In this document: piece after piece, positions 41,223-55,818 of the stretch
How positions within the stretch are numbered: position 1 is the first letter of the stretch
Layout: each line of letters begins with the position of its first letter
Source of the DNA: an uncultured Eubacteriales bacterium
GTDB taxonomy: Bacteria; Bacillota; Clostridia; Oscillospirales; Oscillospiraceae
Length of the DNA: 64,000 bases
Assembly (NCBI GenBank): GCA_900316205.1
Contig: ONBX01000007.1
Span: 35,456-99,455, forward strand
Direction of reading: 5' to 3'
Notes under the pieces: model-generated
What the model was told of the DNA's origin: nothing
The model's input: only the letters and a program-made list of their open reading frames with translations
Databases searched by the model: none
Translations under genes and position numbers: made by a program

Positions 41223-42433
41223 TTCATTCCCTCTTCCAGAATTCTGTTGACGATTTTCACCGGATCAAAATCTGTCAAAGGACGGTTAACGACCTCGCCA
41301 AGCTCGCCTCTTTGGATCCGCTCGATGGCCGCCGCAATATCTTCCACATTGTTCTCACAAAATACGAACCTGTGATAAGGCTCAAAAAACGCCCTCAAGA
41401 TCATCTTTTCTTCCTCCGTTCCGTCAAGGATAAACAGAACGGTTTTGTCCGTAGCGGCATATTGATAAATCTTTCCGGGGATTTGCCCGCCCTTGCGGTT
41501 ACAGAGGAAAACCAGGACAGTTGTCTGTGCTTCAAAACCACGCAAGGCTTCCAGCTGTACGCGGGGGTGCACCTGCACGAGATCATTCGATTCCAGGTGA
41601 ACATTGGAATCGCCGCATATCGTAACAGGTACGCCGCTTGCATTAGCCGCCTCATAAAACGGCCGGAGATCCCGGGCGGGGAGTTCATAGTTACCGAAGT
41701 AGCCGAAGTGGATTCCGTTTATCTTTCCTTGCGCCGAACCGGGAGCATAATAGGCAGGAAGAGGCTCCCAGAACATCTTCTCTTTATTCTCGGGATAAAG
41801 CTTTTTTTGGTTATCCAGCGTGATCGGGCTGACATAACAAATTCTTTGGCCAAACCCAAGCAGCCGTTTCTCCTCCTGAAAAATCGCGTCTTTCCCGTTA
41901 AACCCGTACGCATCGCTATACCAGGGATCCTCCCAGATCTGGATCCAGCGGGCTGCCTTTACCCGTCCGGACTCCAGCAAATTGTGGGCTAACAAATGAC
42001 TGGTAACAGGGGTAGAAATGGAGAGTAGAAGATCGTAGTCCACATTGCTGTGAAAATGCCCGGCTCTGCGAACAAAGGGAGCATAAATACCATGAACGCC
42101 GTAGAGCGAGAGGATCCATTTTTTGAACCGATACAGGAACGACTTCCTCTTATTTGCCTTTCCCTCAGCGGGAGTGGCTTTCGCAGTTTCCGCAGGTCGC
42201 ATCTTCCTGCGCTTCAAAGACAGTCTCTCATAGAGGCTCATTCCATAGTACGAATAACACCGTACAGACTCAGGAATGCACATATTGGGATCCTTCTGAT
42301 ACACCTTTCCATCGGCGCTGAGTAGCGTAAGCTCATGCCCTGCGTCAACGAGGCCGCGAATATAGGCCAGATGGCACAGATTTGCCGAGGAATTCACCTG
42401 GATGCAGTCCCCGTTAACAACAAGTATTTTCAT
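41219..42433 (-). CDS. GT4-like glycosyltransferase
   Basis: 404 residues with a GT-B layout: ILVVNGDCIQVNSSANLC at the start, HFGYFGNYE at the start of the second domain, PVTICGDSN and GGQIPGKIYQYAATDK near the donor site. This PGKxxEY-like motif replaces the usual EGF/EA pair, as in a branch of GT4 from surface clusters. It overlaps the acyltransferase gene by four bases. Confidence 0.8.
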   Translation of the reverse strand: MKILVVNGDCIQVNSSANLCHLAYIRGLVDAGHELTLLSADGKVYQKDPNMCIPESVRCYSYYGMSLYERLSLKRRKMRPAETAKATPAEGKANKRKSFLYRFKKWILSLYGVHGIYAPFVRRAGHFHSNVDYDLLLSISTPVTSHLLAHNLLESGRVKAARWIQIWEDPWYSDAYGFNGKDAIFQEEKRLLGFGQRICYVSPITLDNQKKLYPENKEKMFWEPLPAYYAPGSAQGKINGIHFGYFGNYELPARDLRPFYEAANASGVPVTICGDSNVHLESNDLVQVHPRVQLEALRGFEAQTTVLVFLCNRKGGQIPGKIYQYAATDKTVLFILDGTEEEKMILRAFFEPYHRFVFCENNVEDIAAAIERIQRGELGEVVNRPLTDFDPVKIVNRILEEGMK

Positions 42434-43542
42434 AAGATTCGATTCAAAAACCTTCCGAACAAAGTTTCTGCCTTTTCGCAGAGATTTGTAATGAATGGAG
42501 CTCTTTCAATCCGCCCTACAGTCGCTTTCCGAAGTTTATCAAGTAGGATGCAGACGAGAAAAATGGCAATTGTACATCCAAGGAGCATAAGTCCAAAAAT
42601 AGGAGAATCCATTTTCGACGGGAGATCCAGTTCCTTCCAAATCCACGGTGAGAGATTCGCATGCGCATGGATCAGATAAACACCAAGAGTTGCTGGAGCA
42701 AGCCATGTAATAAGTCTGCTAATGATGTTCTTCTGTATCCGCAGGTTCAGGAAAGCAGTAAATGTGAAGATCGTAGAAAGAAATACCGGAAGAGAATTGT
42801 AGTGATACCAAGTTCCAACAACACTCCGAACCAGCTGGATTCTCTGCCCGAGAATGCAGAACAGGAACGTCACAACCGCGGTAATTCCGAGCCACATCAG
42901 AAGTTTTCCTGTTGTTTTTCCCTTTGGAGTATAATAGAGGGAAAACCATGCGGCCGTGAGATAGAGCACGACAAACCAAGCCAAGCCCCAACCACCACCG
43001 GAGTTCATACCTGCAAAACTGGGATGAATAGAACTCCAGGCAGAAAACAAAAGCCCTAGTGTAAGGATCAGAAGGCCGTGCGTTTTTTTATCCATCGCCC
43101 GAATCGCGATATTCAGGAAGGGGGAAAGCAGATACAAACCTATATAAATGGTGATGAACCAGTAGCGCCCCGTAAGGATTGGGAAGAAGCAGCTCAGCAA
43201 AGCCACTGCCGAAAATGGGATTTGCCCGACCATCATGAAGATCAATTTGATGACAAAGGAATAAAAGGCAACTTCCATCCAGATCTCGACGATCTTTTTC
43301 AGGCGAAAACGAGAGCGCACAAGAAAATAACCGCTCAGCATGACATAGCAGTTAACCGAGATCTGGGTCAGCATATATAGAAACCGAACCAGAACTAATT
43401 GGCCGATCCCTGCTTTCGAAGATGCCTCCAGCACCCCGGTGTGGTCAATGCTGTGCATAAGGATGATCAGCAGCATTGAGAGGATCCGGAGCAGGTCAAG
43501 GCTTACATTCCGAATTGGTTTATTACTATTTTTTTCCTCCAC
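42430..43542 (-). CDS. Acyltransferase family 3 membrane protein
   Basis: 370 residues with about ten membrane helices. SLDLLRILSMLLIILMH near the start is the signature of the acyltransferase-3/OafA-WecH family, which acetylates polysaccharide sugars using acetyl-CoA. The start is GTG at 43542, fixed by AGGAGG seven bases upstream and overlapping the end of the FkbH-like gene by 17 bases. The gene is more AT-rich than its neighbours. Confidence 0.88.
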   Translation of the reverse strand: MEEKNSNKPIRNVSLDLLRILSMLLIILMHSIDHTGVLEASSKAGIGQLVLVRFLYMLTQISVNCYVMLSGYFLVRSRFRLKKIVEIWMEVAFYSFVIKLIFMMVGQIPFSAVALLSCFFPILTGRYWFITIYIGLYLLSPFLNIAIRAMDKKTHGLLILTLGLLFSAWSSIHPSFAGMNSGGGWGLAWFVVLYLTAAWFSLYYTPKGKTTGKLLMWLGITAVVTFLFCILGQRIQLVRSVVGTWYHYNSLPVFLSTIFTFTAFLNLRIQKNIISRLITWLAPATLGVYLIHAHANLSPWIWKELDLPSKMDSPIFGLMLLGCTIAIFLVCILLDKLRKATVGRIERAPFITNLCEKAETLFGRFLNRIL

Positions 43543-45364
43543 GGAGCATCCTCCTGACTTTATGATACAGCGGAGCAAGCATTTCCTTTCCTTCGATCAG
43601 GTGCATCTTTATTCTACTGGTTTCCCGGATCTCGCTTCCGGTACACGCATTGACGATATCGACCATTTCCTTTGCCAAGGAATAGTAGACCGGTTTAATG
43701 TAGTGATTGAAGTGATCGTAAAAGCTGCTTTGATCAACGAGATAGCGGTTGACATCCATCAGGCGAACATTCGGTATATCCTTAGCCCATTCACGGATAC
43801 TTTGATTCATGGCACGATGGACAAGATGTCGATCCGCGTATGCGGGATTCGTGTTCTTCTCATATTCCAGTTCCCCGCCGAGCATGACGACCAGCGTACA
43901 GGACTCTGAAAGCCTGGAGCGAATATATGCCAGATTCTCCACCACGGTGTTTGGGTCATTTCTGCCGAGGAATTCATATTTATCTGCAAATTCGCGAAGG
44001 ATCTCCTTCGTAAAGGGAAAACCCGCATTATAATAGCGTCCACTGATGATTCCGTCCCAGTTTTTCGGGTCAGTCATCGGGTGCAGGTACTCAAGAAAAG
44101 CAAGGCGCTCACCTGTTCCCCTTCTCTGATATACACCCAAATTCGCATCTGTCAGGATGCTGATAAAAACAACTTTATATCCCAGACGGTAGATTCGGTC
44201 GTTATACATCCCAGCATCGGCAAAGGGAACCTCCCGTAAAACGCGGTTCTTTTGCTCTTCTGTCAGACGAGCCGCCTCCACCAGATGTGTCGTGTGACCT
44301 GTAGACTCAACCAAGACACCCCGAGAGTTCGTATAAGTGAACTCCGTATCGAAGAGTTCTGTCTGCGCGATATAGGGATAAACCTGAAACAGATCGCATG
44401 GCCCCTTCACAAGAACTGTATGCTCCTTGAGATTCTTGATCTGAAGCCTGTCTTCCGTCTCGCCTGTCTCTGTCTGATTGATCCAATCCGGGCCTTCTTT
44501 CATTGACAGGTCACTGATGACCTCGCCAACTGCGATGTAGTCCGGTCTTCCCAGTTTGTTATATACATACTGCTCGATCCCCATGCCCAAAGTGCGGCAA
44601 GAGAAGCAAAAATGAACCAGGCGCTTCTCTTTCAAGGCATAGAGACCGACAATGCCATAATCGCCGAATTTATCCGAAACAGATATGTATCCGGCTTCTA
44701 CATCAGGGTCCGCAAAAAGAGCAGAAAGCTCCTCCTTCGAGCTGCGAAGCTTTGTGAAATTCAACTGATTGGAGCGCATATTCAGCTCATACAGACGATC
44801 CAGGTTTTCCAGACAGTCGTGCCTGATTTCTACCCGGATCCGGCTTTCCCGAAGAAATTCCTCGTTGGAACTGTAGTGACTCTTCGCTTCCCGTTTCTCT
44901 TCCAAAACCTTGTACTGGGCCAGGCGCTTGTGTTCAGGGTCTTTTTTACTGCTATGCTCACACGCAGTCAAAAGCTCCGGGATCGACTCCGGCCCTTCTG
45001 TCATGATTTCCGGGCAGAAAAAACGAACTTCCTCCCGGTTGGAATGGTTGTCATCCAGGAAAAGAACATTTGCAGCTCTCAACTGCATATCTGCGATCAG
45101 CTGCTTTACCCTGGCTCCCTTAGGCTCCCAATTTACAGACGGGAACACAAAGAGGTCCCATAGTCCTTCTTCCCGCAGTCTGTTTTCCACCACGCCAGGA
45201 TCGTTTTTGCTGCAAATGGAATTGACAATACCCACGTCTGTCAGCTTCTGCAAGAGAGCGCGGTTATCCTCAGGGATCTCGGCGCCGCCCTCCATGAGCG
45301 TCCCCTTCCAGAAGGTCTCGTCCAAATCCCAAATCACAAGCTTGATTTTATCAAATTGAACCAT
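43526..45364 (-). CDS. FkbH-like HAD enzyme fused to a C-terminal SGNH-like domain
   Basis: 612 residues. The HAD-IIIC domain (about 1-150) has VIWDLDETFWKG (D13, D15), SICSKNDP and FLDDNHSNREEV. A GNAT-like domain (about 160-320, with LYELNMRSNQLNFTKLR and FGDYGIVGLYALK) completes the FkbH core. After about residue 350 comes an extra domain ending YDHFNHYIKPVYYSLA, in which D and H match the last block of SGNH hydrolases. FkbH proteins load a glyceryl unit from 1,3-bisphosphoglycerate onto an acyl carrier protein. The fusion suggests forming an acyl unit and then moving it to a sugar; that is inference. Confidence 0.82.
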   Translation of the reverse strand: MVQFDKIKLVIWDLDETFWKGTLMEGGAEIPEDNRALLQKLTDVGIVNSICSKNDPGVVENRLREEGLWDLFVFPSVNWEPKGARVKQLIADMQLRAANVLFLDDNHSNREEVRFFCPEIMTEGPESIPELLTACEHSSKKDPEHKRLAQYKVLEEKREAKSHYSSNEEFLRESRIRVEIRHDCLENLDRLYELNMRSNQLNFTKLRSSKEELSALFADPDVEAGYISVSDKFGDYGIVGLYALKEKRLVHFCFSCRTLGMGIEQYVYNKLGRPDYIAVGEVISDLSMKEGPDWINQTETGETEDRLQIKNLKEHTVLVKGPCDLFQVYPYIAQTELFDTEFTYTNSRGVLVESTGHTTHLVEAARLTEEQKNRVLREVPFADAGMYNDRIYRLGYKVVFISILTDANLGVYQRRGTGERLAFLEYLHPMTDPKNWDGIISGRYYNAGFPFTKEILREFADKYEFLGRNDPNTVVENLAYIRSRLSESCTLVVMLGGELEYEKNTNPAYADRHLVHRAMNQSIREWAKDIPNVRLMDVNRYLVDQSSFYDHFNHYIKPVYYSLAKEMVDIVNACTGSEIRETSRIKMHLIEGKEMLAPLYHKVRRMLRGGKK

Positions 45365-45493
45365 GTAACTTCACCATCACTCACTGACGAGTTTTTCCGA
45401 TCAAAGGCAAGAAGCCTTTCTTCCGGAGGCATGCTTTTCCATAAAACACATGTAGGATTCTCTTTCTTTTACTTTCGAGCGCGATGCTGCTTT

Positions 45494-46603
45494 TCAAAGC
45501 GATTCCAGCATCTGCTCAACCGCCTTCACTGTATTCTCTACGCTGAAGTACTTTCCTCTCTCCATTGCTTTCTCCCGATAATGATCCAACAATCCAGGCT
45601 CAGTGAGCATTTTTTTTACGCCCTGATACAAAGCCTCTTCGTTGTTTTCGCTAATGAGGCCATATTTATTATCGCCCAGCATCTCCCGCATCCCGGATAC
45701 CTCCGTTGTGCAGACCGGAGTCCCGACGATCAGGGCCTCCGTCGCTGCGGTGGAAAAGCCTTCGGTCAGACTGGAGCAGATAAAGAGATCACAGCGGGCA
45801 AGATATCGATACGGATTCGTCGTATATCCCAGGAACGTGACGCAGTCCCCCAGATCCAAACTTTGAACCAGATTTCGAAGATTCTCTTCCTCCGGTCCCC
45901 TTCCCAGCAGGTAAAGATGTGCCGGGATTCCTTCCCGGCGAAGCTTGCCTGTTGTCCTGATCAAGCGGTCAAAAGCCTTCAATGGCTTCATGGTCCCGAC
46001 TGCAGCAAGCTTTTTCTCCTCAGGTGAAAACAGTCCATCTTCAACCTTCTCAAGTGCTTTTTCCCGAATGACTGCGCTTTCAACCGTATTATACAAGACC
46101 TGTCCGGGAACATGGACAGGCATATTCCTCATAAATTCCTCTCCAACTTTTTGAGAAACAAAAATGAGCCTGTCAAACGCCCCATAGCACTGTTTGCATT
46201 CGTCCACACTGCGAAAGGAGGCTGCAATTCTTTCAGGGCTTCCCTGTATGCTGTGGATCCAGCAAATCAGTTTGGTATCCGGATCCTCACAGCCACTGAT
46301 CACCCGCGCAGAGGGTCCCTCCAGATACGAGACCTCAATATCATAATGCTCTTTTACAAAGAGCTTATGGAGCGCAGCTGGCGTCAGCAGCTTCATCCAA
46401 TAGGTATTGGCAGGGATCATCCGGGGAAACACCCGGACAAGCTTAATGTGATCCTTCAGGAAGCGCTCGTTGGTTCCGCCGCCGAAAAGGACCTGAACTG
46501 TAACGTCAAAGCGCTCCGGATCCAGATGATTCACCAGGTTGACCAGGACCTTTTCCGCGCCGCCGCCACCCAGGTCATGGATCAAAAACAGAACCTTTTT
46601 CAC
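45494..46603 (-). CDS. GT4-family glycosyltransferase
   Basis: 369 residues. The N terminus KKVLFLIHDLGGGGAEKVL is the GGAE signature of retaining GT4 enzymes; the second domain has AVGTMKPLKAFDRLI, YLLGRGPEEE and SSLTEGFSTAATEAL. The GTG at 46603 is chosen because the GT fold starts there and AAGGAAG is upstream. It overlaps the GT2 gene upstream by four bases. Confidence 0.9.
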   Translation of the reverse strand: MKKVLFLIHDLGGGGAEKVLVNLVNHLDPERFDVTVQVLFGGGTNERFLKDHIKLVRVFPRMIPANTYWMKLLTPAALHKLFVKEHYDIEVSYLEGPSARVISGCEDPDTKLICWIHSIQGSPERIAASFRSVDECKQCYGAFDRLIFVSQKVGEEFMRNMPVHVPGQVLYNTVESAVIREKALEKVEDGLFSPEEKKLAAVGTMKPLKAFDRLIRTTGKLRREGIPAHLYLLGRGPEEENLRNLVQSLDLGDCVTFLGYTTNPYRYLARCDLFICSSLTEGFSTAATEALIVGTPVCTTEVSGMREMLGDNKYGLISENNEEALYQGVKKMLTEPGLLDHYREKAMERGKYFSVENTVKAVEQMLESL

Positions 46604-47430
46604 TTTTGTTCCGCTTCCTTCTTCCTCGCATATTTGCGCAGATGAATGTACTGATAGATTCCTGTCGGTACAAAAGCTTTCCAGACATATAGAAATGGAC
46701 GATACCTGGGCCAACCGCGGATTCCCATCAAGGTATAACCTTTATATCGGGTAAGCGCACTGTTTAAACGAGCTCGGAATGTCCTTTTTTTTACCGACTG
46801 CCGGTCATCCAGATAAACATAGAGAAGATCCGGCATATTATAGCCTCTGAAACCGGCAGCAAGAAATCTGCACCACAGGTCTACGTCTTCAACTCGAATT
46901 GCCCTGGGATCCTCTGAATAACCGCCAAGAGCATCATATACGCGCTTATAGGTCATGATCGTAGGATGAGAAAATGCGTTTTGGCGCACCATCGATTCTT
47001 TTGTTGGCTCAGGGTATCGGACTATGGTCCCGATTGTTTTCTCGCCGTCCGTCACCAACTGTCCCGTACCGACCAGATCGTACTCCGGGTGCTCCTGCAG
47101 AAACACCACCTGCTTCTCCAGGCGTTCCGGCATGCACCAGTCATCGGCGTCCATGCGGGCCACCAGTTCGGTTTTCACTTCCCGAAGACAGCGGTTCAAG
47201 GAATAGGGCAGTTTCCTGTTCGTCTCATTCTGCAGAACAACGAATTTATCCGGATAACGCTTCTGATAATCCTGCAGGATCTCCACCGTACGGTCGGACG
47301 AGCCGTCGTCACAGCAGATCAAGATCCAGTTGTCGTAGGTCTGCGCCAGAATCGAGTCTATGGCCTTTTCCAGCGTTTTCTCGCTGTTATAGCAGGCCAT
47401 GATGATGGAGACGGTATTCTGATCGATCAT
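46600..47430 (-). CDS. GT2-family glycosyltransferase
   Basis: 276 residues with SIIMACYNSEKTLEKAI, CCDDGSSDRT and ARMDADDWC, the GT-A motifs with the DxD site, then EDVDLWCRFL near the base. The enzyme is shorter than its neighbours and ends in a basic helix. It overlaps both neighbours by four bases. Confidence 0.9.
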   Translation of the reverse strand: MIDQNTVSIIMACYNSEKTLEKAIDSILAQTYDNWILICCDDGSSDRTVEILQDYQKRYPDKFVVLQNETNRKLPYSLNRCLREVKTELVARMDADDWCMPERLEKQVVFLQEHPEYDLVGTGQLVTDGEKTIGTIVRYPEPTKESMVRQNAFSHPTIMTYKRVYDALGGYSEDPRAIRVEDVDLWCRFLAAGFRGYNMPDLLYVYLDDRQSVKKRTFRARLNSALTRYKGYTLMGIRGWPRYRPFLYVWKAFVPTGIYQYIHLRKYARKKEAEQK

Positions 47431-49193
47431 ACTCTGTACACAACCTTTACAAGATTCCGGTGAAGCAGCTCTTTCGTGAAGCGGAGGCTGAGTTTCTCCT
47501 CAGATTCAGTTTCTACGGAGAAGCCGATCTGACCAAGCGTATTTCTCAGCAAAACATTCTTTTTTGTTTTGATCAGGCACATTTCACCTTGGAGGCACTC
47601 CTCCCGCTCCAAAAGAGAGGAAAAAAGCGCGCTTTCCACGAATTTACCGGCAACGCGGCAGGACATGGCAAATTCCCTCAGAATAAGCTTATCCTGCTGC
47701 TTGCAATATTGTCCGAAGCCCACGATCCCGTAATCGCCGAAATCGTCCCCGCAGGAGAAAGCAAAGGCCTGATAGCCATCGCGCAGCAAGGCCTGATTGA
47801 ACTCTTCCCGGCTGTATTTGACGCCGGACATATTCAACTGATTGGTCCGCGTCAGCAGTTCATAGCAGCGCAGCAGTTCCTTTTCTGTCTTCGGCTCGAA
47901 AACTTCTGCCTGCAGATGGCATTTCTGCAAAAAACTGATGGTGTCGTCATGATCCTCCGCCATCACGCTGCGGCGCTTCGCCTCCGCCCGGTACATCTGG
48001 CGGCGATGACGGCTCTCCTCTGTGACCATAACGGAAAACTCCGGGCGTTCTAGGAGCGTGGCCAGCTCCGGAATGTCATAGCAGCGAACCTGCGGCAGCG
48101 CGCTGCGCACCTGTTCCCGCTCAAAAACGGAATCGTCCAGGAGGGCAAAGGTATCCACCCCGATATTCAGATCCCTGGCAATCTGTTGGATCGAAGCGCT
48201 CTTGGCGTTCCAGTGGATCTGGGGATAGAGGAAATACTCCGCAAGGCCCAGCCGTTCCACCACGGGCCAGGCTGCATCGTAGTCGTTTTTGCTGGCAATG
48301 GACTGCAGGAACCCACGCTCATCCAGAGCCTGGATGAGCTCTCTCACGCCTGGTCGGAGCTGCAGCAGCTCCGGTTCACTTTCGATCAGGGTGCCGTCCC
48401 AAAGGGTATTGTCCAAATCCCAGACAACACACTTCACTTTTGCAGCGGGTTTTTCCGCGGTAACAGGAGTTCCCTTTACAAAATCGCACCAGAGGATCTC
48501 CACATCCGCTTCCAGATCGTTTTCCGGATAGATCTTGATCAAATTGTTGCTGCGCCAGCACTCCGGGGACAACTGCCCCTTGTCAAGGGCCAGCAGGTTC
48601 TCTCCCGGAGCAAGGGAAAGAGAGCTGCGGAAAACCGGCTGATTCTCCCGGTAAACTTCCAGAATCAGATGAAAAGGCTGTTTTTCAAAGCTGTAGCCAT
48701 GAAAAATGAAGGCATCCACAGCGCTGTCTTCGGCCTTCATGCCGCGAAGTCTTCTCCGCCGCAGATACTCCGTTCCGCGGATCATTCCCCAGCGAAACTT
48801 GACCGGTGCGGGAGATTCCACGACCCTGCGAAGCCGGTTCCCCAAGGCCTGGTTCTTGTCAGTCATCACCTGGTAATCCGAGACGGACAGCATCGCCGGA
48901 TATACAATGGTCATCATATTGCCCCAGGGCCGGAATCTGACCCGGGCAGCCTGACCGCAGCAGCCTCTCTCTTCCCGGCGAACCCGGATCCCGTTATAAA
49001 AGCGCTTGCAGCGTCCGTCCGCGCGGGCCTCGAACTGCGTACAGGTCTGAAAGCAAAGCGGCGCGGAGCATTCCAGGCAGTGCTCCTCCCACATGGTGGG
49101 ACGAACAGCATCGATCCGGAATACCTCCGCGATGTTTTTTTGATAGTGTGGTACCTCGCTATCCGCGGGGTCAGCATAATAAAATTGATACAT
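47427..49193 (-). CDS. FkbH-like HAD enzyme with Cys-rich N-terminal domain
   Basis: 588 residues. The first 90 hold seven cysteines (C39, C42, C47, C51, C62, C78, C79) in a zinc- or iron-sulfur-like arrangement, followed by a beta-rich part to about 245. The FkbH core then starts: VVWDLDNTLWDG (D259, D261), SIASKNDY, LLDDSVFEREQV, and a GNAT-like part with LTRTNQLNMSG and DFGDYGIVGFGQY. FkbH enzymes form glyceryl-carrier thioesters. The N-terminal extension is not one I recognise. It overlaps the GT2 gene by four bases. Confidence 0.82.
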   Translation of the reverse strand: MYQFYYADPADSEVPHYQKNIAEVFRIDAVRPTMWEEHCLECSAPLCFQTCTQFEARADGRCKRFYNGIRVRREERGCCGQAARVRFRPWGNMMTIVYPAMLSVSDYQVMTDKNQALGNRLRRVVESPAPVKFRWGMIRGTEYLRRRRLRGMKAEDSAVDAFIFHGYSFEKQPFHLILEVYRENQPVFRSSLSLAPGENLLALDKGQLSPECWRSNNLIKIYPENDLEADVEILWCDFVKGTPVTAEKPAAKVKCVVWDLDNTLWDGTLIESEPELLQLRPGVRELIQALDERGFLQSIASKNDYDAAWPVVERLGLAEYFLYPQIHWNAKSASIQQIARDLNIGVDTFALLDDSVFEREQVRSALPQVRCYDIPELATLLERPEFSVMVTEESRHRRQMYRAEAKRRSVMAEDHDDTISFLQKCHLQAEVFEPKTEKELLRCYELLTRTNQLNMSGVKYSREEFNQALLRDGYQAFAFSCGDDFGDYGIVGFGQYCKQQDKLILREFAMSCRVAGKFVESALFSSLLEREECLQGEMCLIKTKKNVLLRNTLGQIGFSVETESEEKLSLRFTKELLHRNLVKVVYRV

Positions 49194-49214: not shown

Positions 49215-50192
49215 TCAATTAGAAACCCGTTCGGCAGCCTCCGACATATTCAAGCTCTCCATGCCGTATGCTTCACGAAGCTTGCTGTAATACGAAAAAA
49301 TCTCTTCCAGTTGATGCATATGGAAATCCGTATGGACGCCAATGTTGTGGGGATGCCACCAGAGATGAAAGCTCAGACCTTTCTTCGCAGCATGCAGCAT
49401 CTGCCGCTTGATCCGATGGATTTTCAGTTTTTCCAGGAAAAAGAGCTTATCGAAGCGAGGCTTGTACATTCTGGAGCCGGGCAGGTGCACAAGGTCTCCC
49501 TCTTTCCTGGGCTGATATCCGCCCTGTCCGGTAAGCGGAAGGTATACATCCATCAGGCGAAGAGCCCGAAGCAGTGTGTGATTGCGGACTCGCTCGTGAA
49601 TCCAGTCCTGCTCCTCATCCCGATAGGCCACAAAGCCTTTGGATGCAACGATTTTTTCATAGGCAGGGATCGTCTGATTGCGGGGAAACACAATGGATTG
49701 CAGCGCATAGCCCTTATCTGCCGCGATCCGGATCGCAGCATCAAGATCCGCGGAAAACTGCTCCGCGGTCTGCCCCTCCTCCCGGCAATAATAATGGGAA
49801 TAGGTGTGGCTGCCGATTTCCTGTCCCGGGGCCTCTGACACAAGGTGGATCAGGTCAGGCGCAAAAAAGCAGTCCTCATGACCTGTCGGAAACGCAGGAT
49901 CCGCAAACAAACGGTAGGAAGAAAGCTTGGCATTCCGGTAGTGAGGCACAAGGTCTTCTTCGGGAAAATAGCGCTGGGCTTCCTCCCGGTTTTCCGCAAA
50001 CATGAGTCCCACCGTGGCCCAGGTCGCATGGATTCCATATTTTTCAAACAGCTTCAGAAGCTGCGGGATCGCTTTTCTTCCGCCAAGAACATGATCCTGA
50101 TAGGACTCCAGGCTGTGACCATCCTGCATGCCCCAGAACAGCTCAAAATCGAGAGATACGATCAGTTGTGCTTTGTGATGTATATTCTTCAT
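49215..50192 (-). CDS. Polysaccharide deacetylase family protein
   Basis: 325 residues. IVSLDFELFWG gives the first NodB motif (Asp and Glu), IGSHTYSHYYC the metal-binding histidines, and SFHLWWHPHNIG the C-terminal His motif. No signal peptide is visible, so it may act inside the cell on lipid-linked sugars or sugar nucleotides, like PgaB-related or formyl-removing enzymes. The start could be 50192 or 50204; neither has a strong ribosome site. Confidence 0.85.
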   Translation of the reverse strand: MKNIHHKAQLIVSLDFELFWGMQDGHSLESYQDHVLGGRKAIPQLLKLFEKYGIHATWATVGLMFAENREEAQRYFPEEDLVPHYRNAKLSSYRLFADPAFPTGHEDCFFAPDLIHLVSEAPGQEIGSHTYSHYYCREEGQTAEQFSADLDAAIRIAADKGYALQSIVFPRNQTIPAYEKIVASKGFVAYRDEEQDWIHERVRNHTLLRALRLMDVYLPLTGQGGYQPRKEGDLVHLPGSRMYKPRFDKLFFLEKLKIHRIKRQMLHAAKKGLSFHLWWHPHNIGVHTDFHMHQLEEIFSYYSKLREAYGMESLNMSEAAERVSN

Positions 50193-50248
50193 AGCTTTTC
50201 TCATATAGATTTACAAGCAGTTCACTTCATACCAATTAAGTTCCGTAC

Positions 50249-52737: not shown

Positions 52738-53781
52738 TCAATTCGCCATTTCCATCCAGCGTCTTTTTACGATAGTACCGTATTTCAGTTGACTGGCCGG
52801 GAGTTCCTCGCGGAGCAAATGCTTGATGCATAGATAGGGCAGATTGACGCCTGCAAGAGCAAAATACGGGATCCCCGCCGTGATCCTGGGATTACATTCC
52901 ATGATCAAAGGAGTTCCGTCCGCTCTCTCCCGAAGATCAAAGCCGATATTGCCATCCAGCCCCAGTTTCTCTGTAACAGCAGCACAAAGTTCCATCACCG
53001 CAGGAGCATCCACGATCTGCGCATCCAGCATGATGCTGTTTTCCATCCGAAGGCTCCTCCTGCAGCAGCCGACCAGGATTTTTCCATGGTCAGCAAGAAG
53101 ATCTACCGAGTATTCCGCACCGGGGAGATACTCCATAACCAGAAGCTCCGGAAAGCGCTCTCCTTCCTCAAGGATCTGAACAAGCTCTTCCAGGCGGATG
53201 ATACCGGCACTGGGCTTCTCGTGCAGGAACATTTCAAAACGGGATATGTGGGAATCCAAAACACGGAAACCTCTGCTTCCGCTGCTGTTGGTCGCCTTAA
53301 CGCACACACGTTTTTCCGGGTATCCAAGCTGTGCTGCCTTTTCGCAAAGCTCTTCCATACTGCGGACAGAATAATAGTCTGCACAGGGCAGGCCTTGCTC
53401 CTTTATAAAATCCAGGAGCTTTCGTTTGTCATTGGCAATGGCAAGCGCGGCAGGATCGGAAACTGAAACCTTGGTACCCACCGCAGCGAAGCGATCCCGG
53501 TTTTCTGCCAGAGCATTCAACTCCACCGACATGATGGGAAGGAGAATGTCGATCTTCTCTTTTTTGCAGATCTCAAGCAGCGCATCCACATAGCCCGGAT
53601 CATCTCCCCTGGGAACCGGGTACGCCTTATCGCACATCTGCAGGATCGTAGGATCATCACTCATGTCCGCTCCGACCAGACGGATCTCTCGCTCGCCGTT
53701 CTGCTTGATGCATGCCATCGTTCCCGGCATAAACACATTGCCCGCAGCAGTGATCAAAACATTACATGATTTCAGCTTCAT
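52738..53781 (-). CDS. ATP-grasp ligase
   Basis: 347 residues. An N-terminal Rossmann part (VLITAAGNVFMPG) of the carbamoyl-phosphate-synthase type is followed by the ATP-grasp fold with SVSDPAALAIANDK, CVKATNSSGSRGF, MEYLPGAEYSVDLL and IMECNPRITAG (Mg-binding Glu and Asn). Such enzymes join a carboxylate to an amine or thiol through an acyl phosphate. Directly behind a PLP decarboxylase gene, it resembles the aminoacyl-carrier ligase of butirosin (BtrJ) in context; this is inference. The start has no strong ribosome site and is probably coupled to the gene before it. Confidence 0.85.
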   Translation of the reverse strand: MKLKSCNVLITAAGNVFMPGTMACIKQNGEREIRLVGADMSDDPTILQMCDKAYPVPRGDDPGYVDALLEICKKEKIDILLPIMSVELNALAENRDRFAAVGTKVSVSDPAALAIANDKRKLLDFIKEQGLPCADYYSVRSMEELCEKAAQLGYPEKRVCVKATNSSGSRGFRVLDSHISRFEMFLHEKPSAGIIRLEELVQILEEGERFPELLVMEYLPGAEYSVDLLADHGKILVGCCRRSLRMENSIMLDAQIVDAPAVMELCAAVTEKLGLDGNIGFDLRERADGTPLIMECNPRITAGIPYFALAGVNLPYLCIKHLLREELPASQLKYGTIVKRRWMEMAN

Positions 53782-53789
53782 CGACACAC

Positions 53790-55004
53790 TCAAAAAATAT
53801 AGGTTTGGAGCAGATCCTCACCGGTCTCCGCTCTCTTGACCAACACATACTCATCGCTCTCCGTGTGAGCGATCATCGCACAGTTCGGTAGAATAAAAGG
53901 CGGCTTCAGCACGTTGGAATAGCCTCCCACATTGCCGAAGACCACATAATCCCCTACCGCAAGTTTCCCGGAAAAATCCTTATACACAACATCCTGCTCG
54001 AGGCAGGTATACCCAGTCAGATCAACGGCATCGAACTGATGCTGCGGATTGCCGCAGGGAACGACGCGGACAGGAAGCTGCTTCAGGGTACAGGTCTCCC
54101 CCAACATGTGGACGCCGGTATCCAGGACTGCGAAAGAATGGCCGCGGGCTGTCTTTATGGCCTGCACGCTGGAGATGCAGTCCACAAAGCGGCTTACCAA
54201 GGTCGTCCCGGGTTCGGTGATCAGCCAGGGGGCATCTTTCCCAGGATAGTGCTCCGCCATAAGCGCCGCGGTAACACCGGCATAATCCTCATAGCTCGGA
54301 GCATGATCAAATTGCGCCGCAAACGCAGGATCCATACTGCCGAACATTCCGCTCCCAAGGTCAATGTAAGCAGGCGCTTTATCAAAAAAGCGGTCTGCCA
54401 GCACAAGCATCGTTTCCATCCTGCGCTGCCAGGCTGCCTTGCTTCGACAGCGGCTGATGTGACAATGGAGTCCGGATACATTCAGATTCGGCACCGCAGA
54501 AACCATCTGAAAAGCCTGTGAAAGCTCTTCCTCGTCCATACCAAAACGAGAGACAAAGCCCTGACCCACATCAATGTTCACACGGAGCCCGATTCGGAAT
54601 TGCCGCTCCTCACGCATTTTTGCGAGATCGCAGAGCCGCGCCAGCTCATCCAGGCTGTCTGCATGGACCATGGCGCCGTTGAGGAAAGCCCGGTCCCCCG
54701 CAGCTCCCTTGCAGGGGCCATTGAAGATGATCTCTTCGTCCGGGAACCCGATCCTCTTCGCCAGATCGTATTCCATGCCGGAAACGACCTCGGCGTATGC
54801 CCCGATCTTTCTGACGGTCTTGCAGATATAAGGCGCGTAATTGGTCTTAAAGGAATAAGCGATCCGATACTTCTCATAATAAGTCCGCATCGCGCCTTCC
54901 AGGCTGCGGGCATTGTTCAGGAAAGCTGTTTCTTCAAACACATATACGGGGCAGCCGAAACGGCCGGTCAGCGCATCAAGGCTCTCCTTTGTATAGCACA
55001 TCAC
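53790..55004 (-). CDS. PLP-dependent fold-III decarboxylase (DapDC/ODC-like)
   Basis: 404 residues. The pyridoxal-phosphate lysine is in RIAYSFKTNYAP (the FAVKAN-like site), with SGLHCHIS, DLGSGMFG and EPGT motifs. It lacks the exact lysA signature, so the substrate is not fixed: a free basic amino acid, or a carrier-bound amino acid as for BtrK. It overlaps the PIG-L gene by four bases and is followed by an ATP-grasp gene. Confidence 0.85.
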   Translation of the reverse strand: MMCYTKESLDALTGRFGCPVYVFEETAFLNNARSLEGAMRTYYEKYRIAYSFKTNYAPYICKTVRKIGAYAEVVSGMEYDLAKRIGFPDEEIIFNGPCKGAAGDRAFLNGAMVHADSLDELARLCDLAKMREERQFRIGLRVNIDVGQGFVSRFGMDEEELSQAFQMVSAVPNLNVSGLHCHISRCRSKAAWQRRMETMLVLADRFFDKAPAYIDLGSGMFGSMDPAFAAQFDHAPSYEDYAGVTAALMAEHYPGKDAPWLITEPGTTLVSRFVDCISSVQAIKTARGHSFAVLDTGVHMLGETCTLKQLPVRVVPCGNPQHQFDAVDLTGYTCLEQDVVYKDFSGKLAVGDYVVFGNVGGYSNVLKPPFILPNCAMIAHTESDEYVLVKRAETGEDLLQTYIF

Positions 55005-55663
55005 AGCCCGGTCCCTTCATCGAAATTCATTTCCAGACGGAGGATCTCAAAGGCCTCCGCATACTTTTTCCCGATCTCGTAGCCGCGGAAACCGCAGCGG
55101 CAGCGGACGCCCTCGATCCAATCCTCCGCACCGAACTTGTTATACTCGCTGGTATGGCATTTCAGAGAAGCGATTTTCTTGTCCAAGGTCTTACTGATAT
55201 CCACATACAGCGTTGGTTTAAACGAGACATAGGAGCGGCCGGAAGGCGTAATAGGCTCATAAAAGAATACGGTATTCTTTCTTCGGGCGGCAGCAATACT
55301 GGCCTTGGAAACGCCTTCATGGGCCTGATGCGTATCAAAAGGATGGTGGGTAAAGACCACATCCGGATCATAGTCTGCCATACGCAGGTCGATCGCAGTG
55401 ACCACGTCGGATTGGAACGGAATATCCTTTGTAGGGAAATCCAGGATCTCAATATTTCGGATCCCCAGCGTGTGGAGCGCATTCAAGCCTTCCTTCACAG
55501 CGATTTCATCCGAACGCTGAACCGCTCCCTCTTTGTTGGTATAGCCGGATTTGCTCATGATGAGCACCTTGACATCGTGTCCTGCTTCTATCGCTTTTGC
55601 AAGTGTTCCGCCGCATGCGATCTCAATATCGTCCAAATGTGCGCCAATGGCCAGAATTCTCAT
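55001..55663 (-). CDS. PIG-L family deacetylase
   Basis: 220 residues. GAHLDDIEIACGG carries the zinc ligands (H9, D12 region) of the AHPDDxE motif with Leu in place of Pro, and THHPFDTHQAH the third ligand. PIG-L enzymes remove N-acetyl groups from GlcNAc-type sugars or small molecules such as bacillithiol precursors. The ATG at 55663 has AGGAG upstream. It overlaps the PLP decarboxylase gene by four bases. Confidence 0.9.
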   Translation of the reverse strand: MRILAIGAHLDDIEIACGGTLAKAIEAGHDVKVLIMSKSGYTNKEGAVQRSDEIAVKEGLNALHTLGIRNIEILDFPTKDIPFQSDVVTAIDLRMADYDPDVVFTHHPFDTHQAHEGVSKASIAAARRKNTVFFYEPITPSGRSYVSFKPTLYVDISKTLDKKIASLKCHTSEYNKFGAEDWIEGVRCRCGFRGYEIGKKYAEAFEILRLEMNFDEGTGL

Positions 55664-55818
55664 GAACTGCAATTCTCCTGTATTCCTTCATCCGTCCTGC
55701 AGTCTGGTTACTTTTGAACAGGGCAGATTCGCAATAAAGATTCATCTTTGATAGAAATATAAACCGTAAGCGAGCCCAACTGCCCGCCGCTATCGTCATG
55801 CCGGATTGATTCCGCAGA

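Follow-up and report, generated by a model that had tools for sequence, protein, structure and literature searches.

Two clades of FkbH-type enzymes without a neighbouring acyl carrier protein, represented in the polysaccharide gene cluster of an uncultured Oscillospiraceae bacterium

In the excerpts of the literature considered here, FkbH enzymes are loaders of an acyl carrier protein (ACP) or a carrier domain, and in the relevant text of PMC7489565 FkbH makes glyceryl-ACP from 1,3-bisphosphoglycerate. We analysed a stretch of 64,000 nucleotides (hereafter, the window) from an uncultured Eubacteriales bacterium of the Oscillospiraceae (GenBank assembly GCA_900316205.1, contig ONBX01000007.1, positions 35,456 to 99,455), in which two FkbH genes, FkbH1 and FkbH2, lie in a polysaccharide gene cluster. 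The two proteins are FkbH family members by domain, distinct from the ACP-dependent FkbH-ACP pair, and the absence of a carrier characterizes two FkbH clades that extend beyond the single window. Carrier-free use of FkbH was not found described in the open-access literature searched, which was represented mostly by titles and abstracts.

Both proteins exceed the curated NCBIfam cut-off for FkbH (TIGR01686, 146.65 bits), FkbH1 with 157.9 bits and FkbH2 with 240.9 bits, and no other FkbH match was found genome-wide, in agreement with a preliminary description that had placed two FkbH-like enzymes, with correct coordinates, in one glycan cluster. Orthologs of FkbH1 share 60–64% identity with it in seven named genomes and 41% in G169; the relatives in G169 (142.9 bits) and G691 (137.5 bits) fall slightly below the cut-off. 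Orthologs of FkbH2 are 58% (locus L062), 57% (L110), 55% (L059) and 36% (L066) identical. An FkbH-like stretch with 26–27% identity is also encoded in two faecal phage records (MT835480.1 and MT839313.1).

The sequence motifs of the catalytic Asp pair and the GNAT site, whose loss the preliminary description had named as the observation that would speak against it, are intact. FkbH1 contains the HAD residues D13, D15, T17, K53, D104 and D105, kept in 9 of 9 aligned sequences, FkbH2 contains D259, D261, T263, K302, D353 and D354, and the Cys of the SCR motif is Cys256 in FkbH1 (FSCRTLGMGIEQ) and Cys512 in FkbH2 (MSCRVAGKFVES). Across 47 FkbH sequences, DxDxT is universal and the SCR Cys is present in 46, the exception (L077) being truncated upstream of the motif; in the FkbH2 of L059 the site reads MSCRVAGKYVES in the alignment. 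Together with the HAD motifs, the GNAT-side motifs QLN, DxxG and SCR rank among the best-conserved positions of the alignment.

By sequence, the closest solved structure is BF1531 (3slr; E 4.8e-5 for FkbH1 and 1.6e-11 for FkbH2). We modelled both proteins with AlphaFold2 (mean predicted local distance difference test score (pLDDT) 87.9 and predicted template modelling score (pTM) 0.50 for FkbH1; pLDDT 75.2 and pTM 0.52 for FkbH2). Using Foldseek, the HAD part of FkbH1 matches BF1531 (3slr) and MDP-1, and the FkbH domain of FkbH2 matches BF1531 and MDP-1 with its HAD part and SpNatD, RimI and PseH with its GNAT part; beyond its N-terminal domain, the model of FkbH2 is thus a complete HAD plus GNAT unit. 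The 50 matches listed for FkbH1 in the PDB are all HAD-type phosphatases, and its GNAT fold is assigned from alignment and a few GNAT matches in BFVD, a collection of predicted viral proteins. The TIGR01686 match covers the full domain of FkbH2 (profile positions 3–322), and the FkbH2-type genes and one class of ACP-type genes (class ii, below) likewise reach 320–322; in FkbH1 it ends at position 285 of 323, and in the other 10 genes of its type at 280–288, about 38 positions short in all 11.

As the preliminary description had noted, no ACP is encoded locally: neither PF00550 nor a second ACP profile, seeded with ACPs beside FkbH genes, detected one on the 99-kb contig that carries the window (C51). 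For comparison, a search of 300 genomes of the family with FkbH2 as the query (E <= 1e-20) gave 33 matches, of which 29 remained once the two genes of the window itself and the matches of FkbH2 type (G174) and FkbH1 type (G169) were set aside. An ACP gene stands beside every one of these 29, overlapping or no more than 61 bases away in 28 cases and at 2.2 kb in L085 (L077 is retained in this count; L102, a 217-amino-acid fragment, is excluded from the FkbH counts). By contrast, none of the 15 FkbH1- or FkbH2-type genes in 12 loci (the window, L058–L066, L101 and L103) has an ACP in the available flanks, and none was found in L110 or the plasmid loci L113–L115, bringing the carrier-less loci to 16. 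The second profile reached 49.8–124.3 bits in each of the 33 control loci (14 were sources of its seeds) and did not exceed 7.1 bits in any of the 16 loci without a carrier. It also assigned 50.2 bits to the annotated Streptomyces carrier of L117, which a first profile, built from the three ACPs of the window's own genome, had scored at E 0.098 only. Two control plasmid loci with FkbH carry annotated carrier proteins. An 83-amino-acid gene next to the Rhizobium relative (L115) was considered as an ACP and set aside, as it matches neither Pfam nor the ACP profile. Hence, FkbH1 and FkbH2 lack the partner ACP gene that characterizes a functional FkbH-ACP pair.

The preliminary description had also allowed for a carrier elsewhere, and this stood in part: three ACPs in the genome exceed the PF00550 cut-off, all on other contigs (C27, C55 and C57), and the second profile recovered the same three, but none is dedicated to FkbH1 or FkbH2. 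Going by gene names read from the sequence, neither a fatty-acid gene nor a ligase gene accompanies the first in the 3.2 kb covered, the second is preceded by an AMP-ligase and followed by a condensation-like protein, and the third is flanked by an AMP-ligase and a thioesterase-like gene. Each of the 12 other genomes carrying FkbH1 or FkbH2 has at least one ACP (PF00550), never near either gene; where they share a contig, the shortest distances are about 45 kb (G689) and 200 kb (G346). A single ACP at E <= 0.1 is present in each of five of these genomes (G620, in which FkbH1 is a C-terminal fragment only, G688, G689, G690 and G694). Fatty-acid genes were read near three of these five (plsX-like in L107, FabK/FabD-like in L108, and FabH to FabF-like in L109) and none near the ACPs of L105 and L106. 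In G692 and G681, a different FkbH gene has an ACP, adjacent in L111 and at 1.6 kb in L112, whereas FkbH1 has none nearby, and neither does FkbH2 in G692.

In a tree of 46 FkbH domains, from which L077 was omitted, the FkbH1-type (11), FkbH2-type (5), class i (10) and class ii (20) sequences are each set apart by a branch, and the branch separating FkbH1 and FkbH2 from the ACP-type sequences has a support of 97/83. Class i denotes short ACP-type FkbH proteins, and class ii long ones with an N-terminal domain of about 180–300 residues. Since the root was placed at the midpoint, gain and loss of the ACP are not distinguished by this tree.

The preliminary description had assigned a fused SGNH-like domain to FkbH1. 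An extra C-terminal part of about 300 residues is indeed present and is modelled as an alpha/beta domain; its SGNH nature has some structural support, but the Pfam GDSL match (12.9 bits, E 0.16) stays below the cut-off of 32.9. The motif G321-P322-C323-D324 sits immediately after the first strand of the model, and G321, C323, D324, N520 and H554 are invariant, with D550 nearly so, in all 12 members of an alignment (A6) that includes two plasmid-borne sequences from the Alphaproteobacteria Loktanella and Komagataeibacter and leaves out L058 and L115. The Rhizobium relative of L115 has ANCQSG and DCVH and is misaligned at the Cys when included. At the position of the SGNH nucleophile, there is no Ser in a GDS motif but Cys323 of G-P-C-D, in 12 of 12, and the Asp and His of SGNH block V are present as D550 and H554, spaced DxxxH in the window protein; the usual spacing is DxxH. 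Several GDSL/SGNH lipases in BFVD match the FkbH1 model by fold, one example being the Fadolivirus lipase A0A7D3V796 (E 6.0e-3, 282 columns, template modelling score 0.58 by target), in output that gives no aligned range. Judging from the model, the domain is probably SGNH-like, with Cys in place of Ser.

No Pfam or NCBIfam family exceeds its cut-off over this domain in the window protein, and sequence searches of the PDB with the extra domains of FkbH1 and FkbH2 gave nothing usable (best E 0.084). Scattered family matches, each in a single relative (for example, IFS at E 0.0099 and GapS4b at E 0.0063), were judged to be chance, homology to GSCFA (PF08885) was dropped at an hhalign probability of 0.3%, and a shared origin with the N-terminal domain of class ii proteins is not claimed (hhalign probability 13%). 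The C-terminal domain of FkbH1 was detected in 3 of the 390 further class genomes sampled, with G620 holding a 217-amino-acid fragment, and in none of the 293 further phylum genomes. Among the plasmid-borne relatives, the one from Komagataeibacter (L113 7633-10719) is a protein of 1028 amino acids that joins a DUF1796 papain-like domain and TPR repeats to an entire FkbH1-type enzyme and adjoins a GT61 gene; a GSCFA-family gene whose name motif has a Cys (L114 10883-12238) adjoins the Loktanella relative; and the Rhizobium FkbH (L115 7320-9533) has a long N-terminal region and, in its C-terminal domain, an NCQ motif that we take to resemble one in WcbI.

FkbH2 carries its extra domain at the N-terminus, where the preliminary description had recognized a Cys-rich domain of no known family. 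This assessment holds, as no Pfam or NCBIfam family matches the domain in the window protein, and H38 and the five cysteines C39, C42, C47, C51 and C62 are invariant in the four aligned members. The Cys part (residues 36–68) is modelled at pLDDT below 50 and is followed by predicted beta strands at residues 161–243. Outside FkbH2-type proteins, searches of 390 further class genomes and 293 further phylum genomes gave no occurrence of the domain, and among the 300 family genomes only G174 has an FkbH2 that includes it.

In the window, both enzymes are encoded in a polysaccharide cluster. On the minus strand, the cluster reads EpsG-type polymerase, CDP-glycerol glycerophosphotransferase, NodB-type deacetylase, FkbH2, the glycosyltransferases GT2a and GT4a, FkbH1 and acyltransferase 3 (AT3), accompanied by more glycosyltransferases, a pyruvyltransferase, a LicD-like protein and a flippase. 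Pfam supports the names EpsG, glycerophosphotransferase, deacetylase, AT3 and pyruvyltransferase; the glycosyltransferase, LicD and flippase names were read directly off the sequence. A deacetylase-type gene immediately precedes FkbH2 in all five loci, four times NodB-type and once DUF2334 (L066), and the deacetylases of L059, L062 and L110 are 59–65% identical to that of the window; by hydropathy, none of the four examined (window, L059, L062 and L066) has a strongly hydrophobic N-terminus. Orthologs of GT4a (52–55% identity) occur in all six glycan loci L058–L063 and adjoin FkbH1 in L058, L060, L061 and L063, and L059 has a 56% identical GT2a ortholog at the same position. The acyltransferase named in the preliminary description follows FkbH1 in the window. 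AT3 is also beside FkbH1 in L058, L060, L061 and, truncated, in L062, and 6 kb away in L065, but it was not found beside FkbH1 in L059, L063, L064, L101 or L103. The FkbH1 and AT3 open reading frames overlap by 53 bases (43526-43578) with a TTG start, and a later true start is probable. Farther along the window (52738-55672), a PIG-L deacetylase, a LysA-like PLP enzyme and an ATP-grasp ligase are encoded consecutively, a row that may provide sugar deacetylation and amino acid attachment; genes similar to this trio were not found in the related loci compared.

Features of the two FkbH genes and their neighbours (positions in the window)
Feature	Position	Strand	Basis
FkbH1, 612 amino acids; HAD plus GNAT-like FkbH domain and C-terminal Cys-type, probably SGNH-like domain	43526..45364	-	TIGR01686
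FkbH1, HAD part, residues ~1-140	44945..45364	-	conserved motifs, Foldseek
FkbH1, GNAT-like part, residues ~141-296, Cys256 in FSCRTLGMGIEQ	44477..44944	-	motif, some BFVD GNAT matches
FkbH1, C-terminal domain, residues ~313-612	43529..44428	-	alignment, BFVD fold matches
FkbH2, 588 amino acids; N-terminal Cys-motif plus beta domain and full FkbH domain	47427..49193	-	TIGR01686
FkbH2, N-terminal domain, residues 1-248	48450..49193	-	alignment, AlphaFold2
FkbH2, FkbH domain, residues 253-573, Cys512 in MSCRVAGKFVES	47475..48437	-	TIGR01686, Foldseek
NodB-type polysaccharide deacetylase, immediately before FkbH2	49215..50204	-	PF01522, 31.6 bits (cut-off 23.1)
GT4a, GT4-type glycosyltransferase, immediately before FkbH1	45494..46714	-	read from sequence
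GT2a, GT2-type glycosyltransferase, after FkbH2	46600..47430	-	read from sequence
AT3, acyltransferase-3 membrane protein, after FkbH1	42430..43578	-	PF01757, 103.3 bits

The linkage of FkbH to a deacetylase recurs among the ACP-type genes. All 11 class i loci (L067–L077) show the order MBOAT, protein with a C-terminal NodB domain, ACP, FkbH, although two of the 11 NodB matches were themselves profile seeds; Pfam backs the NodB and MBOAT assignments for two proteins each, and both NodB proteins examined have an N-terminal hydrophobic segment. MBOAT was detected in 21 of 29 ACP-type loci compared with 1 of 12 carrier-less loci (L059, which was a seed of the MBOAT profile, as were four control loci and a spurious 54-amino-acid open reading frame), with Pfam confirming all four that were scanned, one of them right at the cut-off; in the window, neither MBOAT nor ACP was found. 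The class i operon may be a Dlt-type export system in which FkbH replaces the adenylating enzyme, a resemblance to Dlt export that we presume. Thus, the FkbH-deacetylase linkage comes in two forms, with both carrier and MBOAT or with neither, and this recurrence is the main ground for the model of deacetylation and reacylation by FkbH2 set out below.

For enzymes of this family encoded in a polysaccharide cluster, acylation is the most natural reading of the sequences, and none of the results obtained refutes it; the part of AT3, which is not beside every FkbH1, the glyceryl identity of the acyl group and the polysaccharide target are all putative. From the observed domain layout, the motifs, the lack of a dedicated ACP and the linkage to the deacetylase and GT4a, we infer an acyl group, an acceptor and a transfer route as follows. 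By analogy with the family, the HAD and GNAT parts would take 1,3-bisphosphoglycerate, strip the phosphate and bind the glyceryl group in thioester linkage to the conserved Cys (C256 in FkbH1, C512 in FkbH2). For FkbH2, the neighbouring deacetylase would expose the amine of an N-acetyl sugar precursor, to which the GNAT part would transfer the glyceryl group, in effect exchanging N-acetyl for N-glyceryl; a D-glyceroyl amide is tabulated for the O-antigen of Pragia fontium in the part of PMC10609480 that lists it. In FkbH1, Cys256 would hand the glyceryl group to Cys323 in the fused SGNH-like domain; this domain would substitute for the ACP as the thiol acceptor and then esterify or amidate a sugar handled by the adjoining GT4a.

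That FkbH1 and FkbH2 represent two FkbH clades working without a dedicated ACP and placing a glyceryl or similar group directly on the polysaccharide of the cluster is a reading to which we give about even chances. Its more specific form we put forward tentatively, with confidence short of that: FkbH1 would be a self-contained acylator, distributed from Clostridia to Alphaproteobacteria, in which a second Cys replaces the carrier and a glycolytic acyl phosphate is converted to a sugar ester or amide within one polypeptide, and FkbH2 with its deacetylase would be a second carrier-free solution, converting N-acetyl to N-glyceryl. Several observations weigh against the carrier-free reading. Contig ends shorten the flanks in which a carrier could be seen (2.0 and 4.3 kb in L058, 5.9 and 4.5 kb in L066, and 4.3 kb in total in L110), members within a clade are not independent of one another, and the three ACPs of the genome leave room for a shared one. 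With a pTM near 0.5, the packing of the domains in FkbH1 and FkbH2 is not fixed by the models; the acyl-holding role of the FkbH Cys is argued from conservation, and the SGNH assignment from motif position and fold matches that come with no aligned range shown, with Pfam GDSL under its cut-off (E 0.16) and the hhalign comparison to GSCFA negative. The genomic linkage is also incomplete. The GT4a relatives in L065 and L103 are distant (22–26% identity), and FkbH1 occurs without genes resembling the glycosyltransferases of the window in L101 (8772-10595), between purA-like (read from sequence) and CapA-like (PF09587) genes, and in L064 (9986-11833), after two ABC-transporter-like genes, with sugar-dehydrogenase-like and polymerase-like open reading frames 7–10 kb upstream (all L064 names read from sequence). 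Similarly, the FkbH2 relative in L066 (5195-7693) adjoins the DUF2334 gene but no glycosyltransferases similar to those of the window.

The main rival explanation, which we regard as unlikely although by some distance the strongest competitor, is that FkbH1 and FkbH2 load the unclustered housekeeping ACP of fatty-acid synthesis, which then feeds AT3 or the fused domain. In its favour, one strong ACP (60 bits) is encoded in the genome besides two next to AMP-ligase-like genes (read from sequence), every other genome with FkbH1 or FkbH2 offers at least one ACP, and FkbH2 retains the whole FkbH domain; however, all 29 ACP-type FkbH genes keep an ACP of their own nearby even though fatty-acid ACPs are presumably present in those genomes too, and the domain match of FkbH1 stops early. 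An acceptor such as coenzyme A (CoA) or another small thiol, with FkbH1 producing glyceryl-CoA for the fused domain or AT3, seems improbable to us. R-x-x-G-x-G is the form of the GNAT CoA-binding loop, and R257-x-x-G260-x-G262 is kept in 11 FkbH1 sequences, both glycines being found in no ACP-type sequence compared, but the residue at G260 is Asn in the relatives from Loktanella and Komagataeibacter and His in the one from Rhizobium, and FkbH2 has RxxGxF. The abstract of the bafilomycin paper names glyceryl-CoA, but its discussion has glyceryl-ACP. We think just as little of the chances that both proteins are phosphatases of sugar phosphates or glycerol phosphates, in which the GNAT-like part merely binds the substrate and transfers no acyl group: the HAD motifs are intact, the HAD part matches solved phosphatases, and a CDP-glycerol glycerophosphotransferase is encoded in the same cluster, but the high conservation of the GNAT-side motifs, alongside that of the HAD motifs, argues otherwise.

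If the two clades are carrier-free as we propose, they would connect a glycolytic intermediate by a short path with the decoration of surface sugars and give a testable function to genes annotated as 'HAD-IIIC family phosphatase' or 'hypothetical protein'. The FkbH-deacetylase linkage suggests a more general swap of N-acetyl for other acyl groups on bacterial surface sugars.

Among known systems, FkbH and Mad7/Mad14 of polyketide and tetronate clusters have the same HAD plus GNAT-like domain with the HAD and SCR motifs, but, in the text on them in PMC7489565, they use a stand-alone ACP, whereas FkbH1 and FkbH2 have none and possess fused domains instead. Class ii proteins, which are BF1531-like by layout only, have the FkbH domain in common with the window proteins and differ in their ACP (18 of 18 loci) and MBOAT (10 of 18). 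Class i operons share the linkage of FkbH to a NodB deacetylase but add a carrier and a membrane transferase, and their deacetylase has a hydrophobic segment at its N-terminus (in the 2 of 11 examined). The cj1302 locus of Campylobacter jejuni, which presumably contains ACP genes, resembles the window in having an FkbH domain within a glycan locus. In excerpts of PMC7099621, cj1302 is the FkbH-domain gene of a flagellar glycan locus. The C-terminal domain of FkbH1, finally, recalls two described families, namely WcbI, a polysaccharide enzyme with Cys14 and His201 according to the portion of PMC4104973 that covers these residues, and GSCFA, an SGNH family given as of unknown function in the corresponding passage of PMC9487903. 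Both have a Cys after the first strand, as does FkbH1, and WcbI, the likeness to which is by description only, is also linked to glycans.

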